Origin: Bacteroidota bacterium
GTDB lineage: Bacteria > Bacteroidota > Bacteroidia > B-17B0 > Aurantibacillaceae
Length of the DNA: 52,043 bases
Direction of reading: 5' to 3'
NCBI GenBank assembly: GCA_025963735.1
Contig: JAOQAF010000151.1
Location: 1 to 52,043, forward strand
In this document: positions 21,479 to 26,681 of the stretch, one piece after another
Position numbering within the stretch: the stretch's first letter is position 1
Layout of the letters: the number at the start of each line of letters is the position of its first letter
Notes under the pieces: generated by a model
The model's database searches: none
What the model saw: the letters and a program-made list of their open reading frames with translations, nothing else
What the model was told of the DNA's origin: nothing
Translations under genes and position numbers: made by a program

Positions 21479-23563
21479 TTATTTCTGAATAATAATTTTA
21501 TTCCTGGAAGTCATAGTCGACGATTGCAGACTTATCAGGTAAGTTCCTGAAGGCAGGTAAGATAAATCAAGACGTTCCTTAAACTCTGGATTTACAATTA
21601 TGTTTTTATAAACACATCTGCCCATTAGATCGCGCACTTCTAACAAACAGTTTTTAACAGAGGCGGGAACAGCGAAGTATACAACTCCGTTAGTAGGGTT
21701 AGGATAAAAAGAAAGTGAATGGAGAGTTGCATGTTCATTGATTCCAACAACTTCCGGATTGCCGTTTAATTTATCCTGCGCAACATTTAAAACACTTCTT
21801 TTATTTGGATCCGCATTAAATTCCGATACAAAACCAACTATGTAAATATTGTCAGGATTGTATTTATTTACACCATTAGCCGGTAAAGGCAATGTAATCG
21901 TATAACTTGTTTGGTATGATTGTCCCTGTGTGCCTCCGGTTTGAGGAATGATTCCAGGACTACCAAAAGAGCCATCAGGTGCATTAATCAAAACACGCTG
22001 TTGCTTGTATTGCCACGCGTTTAAAACATATGAATTTTCAGCGAAAGAAAAATATCCTCTCTGATAATAAGGTGACCAGGGCACGTTGTAAAAATTACTT
22101 AACTGATTAAATCCGTTAACCGTGGTATCAGAAGCATTTCCTGAAATATTATTTTCAACCAGATAAGCGTTAAGGCGGTAATCCCCTTTCACTTCGCCGC
22201 TAAAATCACCTTTCACTGTAAAGCTTAATTGACGTGTAACAGAATTGTAAGTTTTATTAAGAATACTTACAGTTACCGGAGTGGCTTTCGCAAGTTCTAG
22301 ATTTATTTTCTTGGCGTAATAAGATCTTGTAATGGCGGCTGTTGCGAGTGAATCATAAAAAGTACGGTCTATCATAGCCGTTGAATATTGTTTCCGATAA
22401 GAAAGTATTCCCGTTGAATTAGTTTCTTTTAAAGAATCATTATCATGAATATTAACAACAATAACAGAGGAAGACTGAATTGCCTGTAGTTTTTCCTGCG
22501 CGTCCGGACTTTCAGGATCTTTTGCGCTCAGAAATTGTTCAACCAAAACTTTTTTTTGTGGTGATGATGTCATCGCAGTCACAGAGGTATACATGGTGTC
22601 GTTTGTGATATTCTGATCGGTTACATTATTTGGTAAACTTGCCCATGCTTTAATTGGATAATATCCGGGCGATGAAACAGAGTAGGGTAGTGCAAAAGTT
22701 ATTTTTGAACTTTGTCCGTACTGGAGCCCATATATAAAATTAAAAACCTGGCTAACAGGTGTTGAATTTCCGTATTGATAATTAAGGGTAATGGTGTTAA
22801 TGGCCGCCGCCGCCGCGTTAGAGAAGGTTACGGTAACACTGTGCGAAGCGTTAGTGAGAATATACTTTTCGGTTTCAACAGAAGTGAGTGCGCCATCAAG
22901 ACTTAAGGGCAAAGTTTTTACTTCAATGTCATCAATCCAGAGTTGATACATGTTGGTAGAATTATTTCTGAAGGCAAAGCGAAGTGCTTGTCCGGCGAAG
23001 GATCCGAGGTTAACAGAATGTCTTGTCCATATGCTTTTTTCTCCGCCTCCCGCAATATGTCCGTCAGCGATGGCAAACAAACGATCGCCTATAGTAAAGT
23101 CACCTGCTACAAGTGCCCCCGTTTTATTGGTAGCGTATACTTCATAACCATCTGCATAATTAGGGTCAGGACTTTTGGCAAGCCAGGTAAGAACGGTGTT
23201 GCCAGTGATGTTGGTAATAGAAGGTGTGATCACCCAGCGGTCTGCAACCAATGTAGTATCCAGCCAGCTGGTGCTAACCAGAAAGGTATCGTTTTCAATT
23301 GAGTTTGCAACCACTGCCCAGCCGATGCTTTGTAACGATGGTACATTAAACGGACTGTTTGGATTTGATAAGGAGCCAATATTGTTATTTAAACCATCAT
23401 TAATCAGGTTTAGGCCTCCCGGAACTGTTGTGTATTGTGTAACACCGGCAACCGTGGTATAATTTTGCAAACTAAGGTTCCCGAAACTATTGCTGTATAA
23501 AATCTGCGAGCGCGTGTTCAATGAAAGAACAAGGGTAGTTGCTAATAAAATAAGTTTCTTCAT
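21479..23563 (-). CDS. T9SS type A cargo with choice-of-anchor-J-like domain
   Basis: A 694-aa secreted protein with a signal peptide (about 1-19, ending NTRSQ). Residues 20 to about 215 form a beta-sandwich with the choice-of-anchor J pattern (RWVITPSI; SFAGQALRFAFRNNSTNMYQLWIDDIEV). The middle has FN3/thioredoxin-like segments, as in Bacteroidota proteins related to Omp28 (KVLVEQFLSAKDPESPDAQEK). The last 75 residues are a type A sorting domain, from LSFYPNPTNGVVYF to SGTYLISLQSS and a basic end. It should cross the outer membrane through the type IX system and be anchored to or released from the surface. Its ATG overlaps the cupin stop by 4 bases (ATGA), so it is translated as the last gene of a three-gene operon. 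The substrate is unknown. Confidence 0.88.
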   Translation of the reverse strand: MKKLILLATTLVLSLNTRSQILYSNSFGNLSLQNYTTVAGVTQYTTVPGGLNLINDGLNNNIGSLSNPNSPFNVPSLQSIGWAVVANSIENDTFLVSTSWLDTTLVADRWVITPSITNITGNTVLTWLAKSPDPNYADGYEVYATNKTGALVAGDFTIGDRLFAIADGHIAGGGEKSIWTRHSVNLGSFAGQALRFAFRNNSTNMYQLWIDDIEVKTLPLSLDGALTSVETEKYILTNASHSVTVTFSNAAAAAINTITLNYQYGNSTPVSQVFNFIYGLQYGQSSKITFALPYSVSSPGYYPIKAWASLPNNVTDQNITNDTMYTSVTAMTSSPQKKVLVEQFLSAKDPESPDAQEKLQAIQSSSVIVVNIHDNDSLKETNSTGILSYRKQYSTAMIDRTFYDSLATAAITRSYYAKKINLELAKATPVTVSILNKTYNSVTRQLSFTVKGDFSGEVKGDYRLNAYLVENNISGNASDTTVNGFNQLSNFYNVPWSPYYQRGYFSFAENSYVLNAWQYKQQRVLINAPDGSFGSPGIIPQTGGTQGQSYQTSYTITLPLPANGVNKYNPDNIYIVGFVSEFNADPNKRSVLNVAQDKLNGNPEVVGINEHATLHSLSFYPNPTNGVVYFAVPASVKNCLLEVRDLMGRCVYKNIIVNPEFKERLDLSYLPSGTYLISLQSSTMTSRNKIIIQK

Positions 23564-23979
23564 TTTTCTTCAATCATTATTCTGTCTTTGCCATCAAAAA
23601 AAGGCGCTTGTATGCTGATTACCTTCAATGGTTTTTCACCGGTTCTTTTCACTGAGTGGATCGTATTTTTAGGAATAAAAATCACATCCCCTTTCTTTAT
23701 TGAAAATGTTTTATCTGCCAATTTCATCTGCCCTTCGCCATCATTTACAATCACGTGTTCACAATGATTTAAATGCTTATGCGCTTTCACCTCCTGTTTA
23801 ATAACAATGCAGAAACTGCTGGCAAGGCTGTCGCTGTAAAGAGGCGAATTATATAAGTTCAGCGATTTGGATTCCGTGCCAATTGTATCCACATTCATTA
23901 CCCCTCCTTTATCATTCAACGTTTGAGCAGATCCTGCTGTAAAACACAACAGAGCAATTATCGCAACAAAATAGCTCAT
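23560..23979 (-). CDS. Exported cupin-domain protein
   Basis: A 139-aa protein with an N-terminal signal peptide (about 1-19, ending AGSAQ) and a single cupin barrel. Motif 1 is KAHKHLNHCEHVIVNDGEG, which supplies His ligands. Motif 2 is GDVIFIPKNTIHSVKRTG, which supplies the last His. A metal site is therefore likely in the periplasm; the ligand or reaction is unknown. Its start codon shares one base with the stop of the upstream TMTC-like gene (TAATG), and its stop overlaps the start of the T9SS gene (ATGA). Translational coupling on both sides implies fixed stoichiometry. Candidate roles are sugar binding or isomerisation, but nothing in the sequence settles this. Confidence 0.85.
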   Translation of the reverse strand: MSYFVAIIALLCFTAGSAQTLNDKGGVMNVDTIGTESKSLNLYNSPLYSDSLASSFCIVIKQEVKAHKHLNHCEHVIVNDGEGQMKLADKTFSIKKGDVIFIPKNTIHSVKRTGEKPLKVISIQAPFFDGKDRIMIEEK

Positions 23980-26681
23980 TAATGTCGGTTAACCGGCTGA
24001 GGTATTACTTGCTGAACCGGCGCTTGCCCTATCATTTGCGGAGTAATTAACGGTAAAACGCGTTTTACTTCCTGGTAATTAGGATTTAACTGTAAAGCTC
24101 TTTCCCAACATTTTTTTGCCTGCGCGTATTTTTGCTGATTAAAATATGCTCCGCCTAAATTATACCATCCTTCAGGATTGTATGGATCAAGAATGGTACA
24201 CTTATTATATTCCTGCGCGGCCTGGCCCATCTTACCCTGATTAAAGGCAGTAGCACCGCGGTTTTTCAGGTCGTTATAATAAACAATGTAATAATTGCGA
24301 AGATATGGGTTGTTCGGATAAAGCCTTTCTGCAAGCTTCCAATAATACAATGCTTCAAAATCTTTGCGTAATTTAAAATGTGCCAAACCTAAATTCAGAT
24401 AACCGTTTACGTACCGCGGGTGAAGTTCAATGGCATGTTTCAGATATCCGATACCACGGTATAATGCGGCTTCACGTTTATCTTTAAATCCGCCGGCCTT
24501 CATTTCTTCGTCGGTTATTTTTAAGGTTCCATTATAATCATTAAAACGGCTTGAGTCCTGACCAACTACCTGAATTCCCGTAACCTCTTTAGTATCGGCA
24601 AGATCTACCCAACGGGCTCCGGCGTTACCCAGCACCAATACTGAGTTTGGCATGGTCTTAACATCTTTTAAAAAGAGCGTAACGTCATTTTTCCAGTCGT
24701 AATTTCTTTCCCATGTTTTACAACCAAACAAGAATCCAACGATTAATACTATGGCTATTAATGACACCCTTTTTAAATTAAAGGACATGGCTGAAATTCT
24801 GTCAAATCCTTTTAAAATAAGGTATGCTACAGCTATTGCGAATCCTAATGAAGAGTGAAAGATCAAACGTTCACCCATGGTTGCGCCGATATCCATTAAA
24901 ACGTTACCGATAAGCAATGCAAATAAAATATAAGTCATTAATGCAAAGCCAAGCACATGTTTTTTAATTGTATAATAAACAGCGCCAATAACAATTCCTA
25001 TATGAACAATCATTGAAAGGATAAAGTCCCAACTTGTAAAGTGTCGGTATTCAATGGTATTGTAAGAGTAATCTGAAGAAAGAGGATGCGGGAAAAACTG
25101 AAGTATCAGATATTTCAATAACACATAAGCTTTAGTAGCAAAACGCTCTTCGCCATCTGCCAGTAAATAAGGGTTATTTAAAATTTCTGTATCCGGCACT
25201 CCTGGCTTTAATTTCACAGCCACCAAACGCATTCCTAAATAGAATAACATTACAAATCCAAACCAGCTCATCAGGTTTACGAATTTACTTTCCCTGAAAG
25301 CCTTTGAAAACCCAAGACCCATAACGCCAAGGTACAGGAACGGGAAAAACCAGAACGAGCGAATTGGCTTGGCCCCCGGTTGAGCATTGATGTCAAAGTT
25401 TCTCTTTAAAAGCAACATGGCCATGGCACAGATTATAAATCCAATCGCAATGATGAGCAGGTTTTTAAATTCTTTGGTGAAAACAAATTCTTTTGCGCGT
25501 TTCATTGCAGCAGATTCGTTTACACGTTTAAGAGCCAGGTAACACAATCCTATTAAAGCTATAAAACTTATGCTTCGCTTTATTAGTTTTGAAGTATCCA
25601 TTTCATCCACTACTTTTTTATGGATGATGAAAACGATAAGGGCAACTCCAAGAACTGCACCAATGCGTAAAGCTAATTTACTGGTAAAATATTCTTTTAG
25701 ATCAATGTCATTCTCAGTAAAAGTATAAACAGCTAAAGGAACAAGAATAAGCAGCATGATGGCATATTCTTTTGATAAAAGCGCGAGAAGGAACATCACC
25801 GCTGCCCAGAACAAATCGGCCCCTCTGCGGCTTTCAAGGTATTTAAAGGAGTAGAGGAAAGTGAGTGAGACAAATATCAATGAAAAAATTTCATCACGGC
25901 TTTTTACGTTTGCAATCGCTTCGGAGTGTATAGGATGCATTGTGAAAATTAAGGCTGCAAGAAAAGCAAGATCCTGATTAGTTCTGAAAAAGTAACGCGA
26001 GAAAACCAGATAAAGAAACATGCAACCTAAGGCGAATGTCCAGATATTATTAAAGTGACGGAGCTTGGCACCGTAAACCTGGCAGTCTACTTCATTAAAT
26101 ACACCGTCAACATTCAAATCCTCATCAAACTGATTTTTAAAATCTTTATTTAAATCCCAGCACTGGTAACATTCGTTGGCCTGCACAATGTTGTCTCCGT
26201 TAACATCTACATAATCATTGTATTCGTAATTTGTTTCGGGCCTGCCGCATGGTGTGGTGTAACTCGTTTGCTCTTTATCAAGCACTCCGTTTTTATTTGA
26301 GTCTTCAGCTTTATAATAAAGTCCGGTGCGGTATGGATTAATAAACTGTTGTTCAATGGCGAAACTTACAACAGATAAAGGACGATAACGACCTCCGGCC
26401 AATTGATCGGTGGCACACATGCGGCGATAAAAACTCTCGTAAGCATCTTTGGTTAAAATGCCGGGTATTCCCCTGAAACCTTTAATAACATGGTCGTTCT
26501 GATGAATGATAATTCCATCGTCAAGTGCATATTCACCGTTAATTGAAGTGATATAAAAAGTGAAGCCCACAATACCTACAAGAATCATTGCCATCTTGTG
26601 CGTTAAAAATGTGAAGTACTTAAACTTGTGAGTCAGCTCCGGAAATGTTGGCTGCTTTAGTGATTTTGAGGGTTGTGCCAT
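23979..26681 (-). CDS. TMTC-like polytopic glycosyltransferase with TPR tail and an EF-hand-like insert
   Basis: A 900-aa inner-membrane protein. TM1 (about 31-49) is followed by YALDDGIIIH, whose D54/D55 fit the catalytic acidic pair of GT-C glycosyltransferases, and by RYRPLSVVSFAIE, a TMTC/DUF1736 hallmark. About ten more helices follow, including TMHPIHSEAIANVKSRDEI, the second hallmark. The C-terminal 150 residues are TPRs (NGYLNLGLAHFKLR; GWYNLGGAYFNQQK). By analogy with eukaryotic TMTCs it may transfer mannose or another lipid-linked sugar to exported proteins. Between the two hallmarks, residues 112-205 are an insert with four EF-hand-like loops, starting at D127, D159, D176 and D188, and four cysteines (145, 171, 174, 200). 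It heads an operon with the cupin and T9SS genes, with a promoter upstream. Transferase activity is inferred. Confidence 0.8.
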   Translation of the reverse strand: MAQPSKSLKQPTFPELTHKFKYFTFLTHKMAMILVGIVGFTFYITSINGEYALDDGIIIHQNDHVIKGFRGIPGILTKDAYESFYRRMCATDQLAGGRYRPLSVVSFAIEQQFINPYRTGLYYKAEDSNKNGVLDKEQTSYTTPCGRPETNYEYNDYVDVNGDNIVQANECYQCWDLNKDFKNQFDEDLNVDGVFNEVDCQVYGAKLRHFNNIWTFALGCMFLYLVFSRYFFRTNQDLAFLAALIFTMHPIHSEAIANVKSRDEIFSLIFVSLTFLYSFKYLESRRGADLFWAAVMFLLALLSKEYAIMLLILVPLAVYTFTENDIDLKEYFTSKLALRIGAVLGVALIVFIIHKKVVDEMDTSKLIKRSISFIALIGLCYLALKRVNESAAMKRAKEFVFTKEFKNLLIIAIGFIICAMAMLLLKRNFDINAQPGAKPIRSFWFFPFLYLGVMGLGFSKAFRESKFVNLMSWFGFVMLFYLGMRLVAVKLKPGVPDTEILNNPYLLADGEERFATKAYVLLKYLILQFFPHPLSSDYSYNTIEYRHFTSWDFILSMIVHIGIVIGAVYYTIKKHVLGFALMTYILFALLIGNVLMDIGATMGERLIFHSSLGFAIAVAYLILKGFDRISAMSFNLKRVSLIAIVLIVGFLFGCKTWERNYDWKNDVTLFLKDVKTMPNSVLVLGNAGARWVDLADTKEVTGIQVVGQDSSRFNDYNGTLKITDEEMKAGGFKDKREAALYRGIGYLKHAIELHPRYVNGYLNLGLAHFKLRKDFEALYYWKLAERLYPNNPYLRNYYIVYYNDLKNRGATAFNQGKMGQAAQEYNKCTILDPYNPEGWYNLGGAYFNQQKYAQAKKCWERALQLNPNYQEVKRVLPLITPQMIGQAPVQQVIPQPVNRH

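Follow-up and report, generated by a model that had tools for sequence, protein, structure and literature searches.

In GT-C glycosyltransferases the first loop is extracytoplasmic and bears the catalytic DD pair, and thrombospondin type 3 (TSP3) repeats follow a pattern of tandem DxDxDGxxDxxD-like 12-mers with cysteines. Four motifs have been described in TMTC proteins, M1 (DD), M2 (SHKSYRP), M3 (RxD) and M4 (KE) (PMC7801869), and the folding of the archaeal Tk-subtilisin depends on an insertion that contains Dx[DN]xDG and four Ca2+ sites (PMC3123361). Our analysis of a 52,043-nucleotide stretch of DNA (the window) concerns a TMTC-like protein of uncultured Bacteroidota with an insert of calcium-type loops in its predicted first extracytoplasmic loop. 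The feature is real and conserved, and the idea that its loops bind calcium is plausible; the more far-reaching result is the core of the insert, which appears to be a mobile module. As far as the literature searched shows, no metal-loop insert has been described for a TMTC-type enzyme, and we found no Pfam model for the 27-residue module. The features discussed here are collected in table 1.

Table 1. Positions of the TMTC-like gene, the parts of its insert and the neighbouring genes in the window
Feature	Position	Strand	Basis
TMTC-like GT-C glycosyltransferase with C-terminal TPRs, 900 aa	23979..26681	-	Pfam; conserved DD, GGRYRP, RxD, KE
D54-D55, predicted catalytic DD pair, TMTC motif M1, extracytoplasmic loop 1	26517..26522	-	74/74 homologues; PMC7801869
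C89, pairs in occurrence with C145; predicted disulfide tethering insert to loop 1	26415..26417	-	co-occurrence
GGRYRP (96-101), counterpart of M2 (SHKSYRP)	26379..26396	-	homologue conservation; PMC7801869
Whole insert, about aa 116-204 by comparison with insert-less TMTC homologues	26070..26336	-	absent in L054, L057, L030, L031, L062
Loop 1 DSNKNGVLDKEQ (127-138), DxNxNGxxD type, position 12 unconserved	26268..26303	-	sequence; alignment
C145	26247..26249	-	co-occurs with C89
Loop 2 DVNGDNIVQANE (159-170), positions 1, 3, 5, 12 conserved	26172..26207	-	sequence; alignment
C171, always accompanies loop 2	26169..26171	-	no statistical partner
Core CWD...DC module (C174-C200), 27 aa	26082..26162	-	recurs in unrelated proteins
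Loop 3 DLNKDFKNQFDE (176-187)	26121..26156	-	sequence; alignment
Loop 4 DLNVDGVFNEVD (188-199), predicted ligand positions essentially invariant	26085..26120	-	sequence; alignment
Predicted TM2 (213-231), begins 13 residues past core module	25989..26045	-	hydropathy
Cupin, signal-peptide-like N-terminus, overlaps TMTC stop; conserved neighbour	23560..23979	-	Pfam; neighbourhood comparison
Secreted Omp28/choice-of-anchor protein, T9SS sorting tail; conserved third gene	21479..23563	-	Pfam; neighbourhood comparison

The reading frame at 23979-26681 (minus strand) is open across 900 amino acids, and its assignment to the TMTC-type GT-C enzymes in a preliminary description of this DNA is borne out: motifs M1-M4 are conserved, and PMT_2 (29.3 bits, cut-off 26.1) and several C-terminal TPR families (about residues 806-875) exceed their Pfam cut-offs. 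M3 is present as SRDE (261-264) and M4 as SKE (303-305); these and GGRYRP, whose resemblance to M2 is confined to its YRP part, are kept in 65-74 of 74 homologues. The TMTC_DUF1736 family (PF08409) matches residues 502-545 with 16.9 bits, below its cut-off of 27, and among close members 10 of 11 match it at E <= 0.1 (best E 0.0004). Judged from its sequence, this is a membrane enzyme that probably sugar-modifies exported proteins. By hydropathy, TM1 spans 26-44 and TM2 213-231, which puts the insert in the last part of loop 1, predicted to be the first extracytoplasmic loop, in agreement with the earlier placement. It had also been said to separate (as residues 112-205) two TMTC hallmarks; it does lie between RYRPLSVVSF and HPIHSEAIANVKSRDE, but is not their sole separator, because TM2 and TM3 also intervene. 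A second length-variable, membrane-like region of the protein, around residues 336-397 (25491-25676), is absent from many same-genus homologues (833-872 aa). In one MAG the TMTC gene is found in two frames (L042 / L010, 715 + 216 aa), which reflects a frameshift or an assembly error.

The four loops begin at D127, D159, D176 and D188, all with the sequence DxNx[DN], between GGRYRP and TM2, and they and cysteines 145, 171, 174 and 200 are located where they were first reported. Successive loops start 32, 17 and 12 residues apart and together occupy residues 127-199 (26303-26085); the codon of C200 (26084-26082) falls immediately outside the range 26085-26303 given originally, and C89, just upstream of the insert as first noted, was absent from the earlier list of cysteines. 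The four loops are present but are not equivalent: loops 3 and 4 are two abutting 12-mers within a single 27-residue module (residues 174-200) with the pattern C-W-D-x-N-x-[ND]-(6)-x-E-D-x-N-x-D-G-x-x-N-x-x-D-C, and loops 1 and 2 are found in some genera only. Loop 4 is the only strict Dx[DN]xDG in the window protein; the others have D or N at position 5 and a variable position 6.

In the protein's own GTDB family 84 of 87 genomes have a match at E <= 1e-30, and among the representatives of ten genera examined there, every homologue with an intact loop 1 carries the core CWD...DC or a cysteine-less SWD form. The genera with loops 1 and 2 and C171 are g1, g161, g156 and, in part, g163 (in g156 extra residues split the module between its two loops), and several genera and a second family (f6) have the core alone. 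More distant TMTC proteins are without the module; in the insert-less L054, for example, ...AIEHQFFGE joins NAFVRHL... directly. Two other distant homologues, L055 and L056, have unrelated inserts in the same place, so this site in loop 1 tolerates insertions. In a tree built without the insert residues, the module carriers are one clade within the TMTC-like proteins and the insert-less proteins branch outside it; two tips within the carrier clade that appear to lack the module are truncated ORFs.

The cysteines of the insert occur in pairs. Among 72 homologues, which include a clade with S and A/T replacing C174 and C200, these two are both present in 65 and both missing in 7, and C89 and C145 are both present in 32 and both missing in 40; no homologue has only one member of either pair. 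No co-occurrence partner for C171 was found in the same 72. These counts overstate the co-occurrence, as each pattern amounts to about one event on the tree, and C174-C200 and C89-C145 disulfide pairs are therefore suggested rather than proven.

The core module is not confined to TMTC-like proteins. A profile made from TMTC proteins only (44 columns) finds a second protein, L089, in genome G002 (E 1.8e-9), which has a Peptidase_S74 domain, GATGATGA repeats and the module copy NCWDTNGNGVGDPAEDTNLDGFYNTLDC, and a profile made from the non-TMTC modules finds the window protein (E 2.6e-9). Since profiles from either side find the other side, homology of the module across its hosts is better supported than convergence, which a comparison over 27 residues cannot fully exclude. 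The module is present in 37 of 295 Bacteroidia genomes, in collagen-like GXY, S74/T9SS, DUF6340 (L109, L120) and TMTC proteins, and 14 unrelated host ORFs align to the window protein solely within residues 158-207. In IMG/VR viral contigs (L175-L180) it is found in collagen-like or tail-fibre-like proteins, some with more than one copy; a 37-aa query gave no module match in the phage and plasmid record collections. We therefore regard the CWD...DC core as an apparently mobile module. Elsewhere in the phylum, proteins of about 690-760 aa (L159, L160, L162-L165, L167-L169, L173) have a cysteine-less GEDRNGNGILDPGEDLDGDGKITRY-like stretch; the two of these that were scanned, L160 and L162, have no Pfam match.

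The TMTC-like gene is followed by cupin and Omp28-like genes, each overlapping the next, so that stop and start codons overlap throughout the group (21479-23979, minus strand). This gene order is kept in L033-L042 and L139, relatives from two genera, and in the g1 relatives a divergent NtrY-like kinase gene lies upstream. We speculate that the T9SS-sorted Omp28-like protein might be a substrate of the TMTC-like enzyme.

Conservation tests the reality of the loops more strongly than shuffling does. In alignment columns from homologues less than 90% identical (59 for loops 3 and 4, up to 39 with the longer insert for loops 1 and 2), D or N fills positions 1, 3 and 5 almost without exception in all four loops, and D/E/N/Q prevail at positions 9 and 12, with position 12 of loop 1 as the one departure. 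Loop 4 has D1, N3, D5 and D12 in 59/59 and N9 in 58/59; loop 3 has invariant D1 and E12 with N/D at position 5 and D/E/Q at position 9; loop 2 keeps D1, N3, D/N5 and E12; and loop 1 keeps D1, N3, N5 and D9. The acidic position 12 is thus invariant in loops 2, 3 and 4 (E, E, D) and unconserved in loop 1, whose lack of an acidic end had been pointed out before. Entropy at the ligand positions (1, 3, 5, 9, 12) is 1.31 bits below that at other positions (permutation p ~1e-5). This pattern fits metal ligands, and the type of motif suggests that the metal would be calcium; the alignment shows the conserved Dx[DN]x[DN](G) and further acidic ligand that characterize the Dx[DN]xDG class, with binding putative. 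The loops are also Asn-rich, loop 3 is without G6 in most members and loop 1 is without an acidic position 12, so some of the sites may be weak. An acidic low-complexity linker, with motifs arising by chance, was the fallback in the preliminary description should homologues lack the DxNxD spacing. The insert is Asp/Asn-rich, as such a linker would be, but the spacing is kept in homologues, shuffling of the 94-aa insert gives a mean of 0.31 DxNx[DN] motifs with four reached in 0/20,000 shuffles, and the same type of 27-mer occurs in unrelated proteins. We exclude this reading as exceedingly improbable, because the ligand positions are conserved while the intervening ones drift. The 12-residue spacing and the conserved positions 1/3/5/9/12 would equally suit a true EF-hand domain of paired helix-loop-helix calcium sensors, the label first applied to these loops. 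That label is unsupported because the abutting loops 3 and 4 leave no room for flanking helices; the 32/17/12 spacing is odd for it and the EF-hand models reach 7.6-8.6 bits where the cut-offs are about 25 (EF-hand_1, 8.6 against 25.4), and we reject an EF-hand as exceedingly improbable.

None of the Pfam EF-hand, dockerin and TSP3 models passes on the window protein. TSP3_bac (PF18884) was rejected, having no match anywhere in the genome, and Pfam lists no TSP3 family for the insert. A dockerin-like module, whose loop face would bind a partner such as an acceptor protein or a different component of the envelope, draws on the best PDB sequence matches of the TMTC profile, which are dockerin loops (weak, E 0.011 and 0.017), on the presence of the module in surface proteins, and on the conserved operon, which includes a secreted T9SS protein. 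It is nevertheless unlikely: the dockerin model reaches 8.3 bits against a cut-off of 22.9, no cohesin was found in the genome (97.86% completeness), and between abutting loops there is no room for dockerin helices. The consensus of the collagen-type modules gives equally weak PDB matches, a sequence search of PDB found no solved structure of the module, and AlphaFold models of the full-length protein (11 sequences, pLDDT 45) and of the insert (pLDDT 35) are too low in confidence for a fold search. The insert sits in the loop that bears motifs M1 and M2 (PMC7801869), and its loops 1 and 3 depart from the canonical form and may have lower affinity; both points suit a calcium-regulated glycosyltransferase in which reversible Ca2+ binding gates the acceptor or donor site and glycosylation tracks external calcium. 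Against such regulation, the module is bracketed by cysteines with predicted disulfide bonds, it is shared with collagen-like stalk proteins, whose copies more likely have a static role, and several genera and the second family have the core only; we think it very unlikely, and a constitutive structural role likelier. A wider proposal sees in CWD...DC a mobile calcium mini-domain of Bacteroidota and their phages that has not been described before, used in collagen-like surface or tail fibres and as a TMTC active-site cap whose bound Ca2+ would govern entry to the catalytic site; we think it unlikely.

The reading that we favour, and consider probable, is a mobile disulfide-bracketed Ca2+-type module that was inserted once and braces loop 1 near the predicted active site. 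Its base would be a small unit in which C-W-D and D-C enclose two 12-residue Dx[ND]x[DN] loops that abut. This unit apparently entered extracytoplasmic loop 1 just before TM2 a single time, in an ancestral form of these Bacteroidota proteins, and in some genera it was presumably extended by two further loops and the second cysteine pair (C89-C145). The periplasm is oxidising and calcium-accessible; there the Asp/Asn/Glu ligands would bind Ca2+ and a C174-C200 disulfide would close the module; the resulting rigid cap would brace loop 1 beside the predicted donor/acceptor site and may aid folding or acceptor recognition. The Ca2+ insertion of Tk-subtilisin is needed for folding (PMC3123361) and is therefore a working precedent for a bracing role. 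The insert offers a handle for probing calcium dependence of bacterial TMTC relatives, and the 27-residue module, recurring in surface fibres, the DUF6340 family and a membrane enzyme, is small enough for direct synthesis and assay.

Among known systems, the TMTC1-4 protein O-mannosyltransferases (GT-C/PMT clan) and their prokaryotic homologues are like the window protein in the loop-1 DD, YRP, RxD, KE and C-terminal TPRs, whereas the window protein has in addition the insert of about 90 residues of metal-loop type that ends loop 1, and its TMTC_DUF1736 match is below cut-off. The Dx[DN]xDG loops (Rigden et al., PMC3123361) of Thermococcus subtilisin are likewise a short Dx[DN]x[DN]-loop insertion in an enzyme fold; the host fold and sequence differ in the window protein, where calcium binding is putative and the module is cysteine-bracketed and mobile across families. 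The calcium loop of dockerin type I resembles loop 4 (D-x-N-x-D-G-x-x-N-x-x-D), but the window module is without the duplicated loop-helix unit and its genome without cohesin. Thrombospondin type 3 repeats (TSP3 / TSP3_bac) share the tandem abutting 12-mers with cysteines, from which the window module differs in having Asn at positions 3 and 9, a CW..DC bracket and a fixed 27-aa unit.
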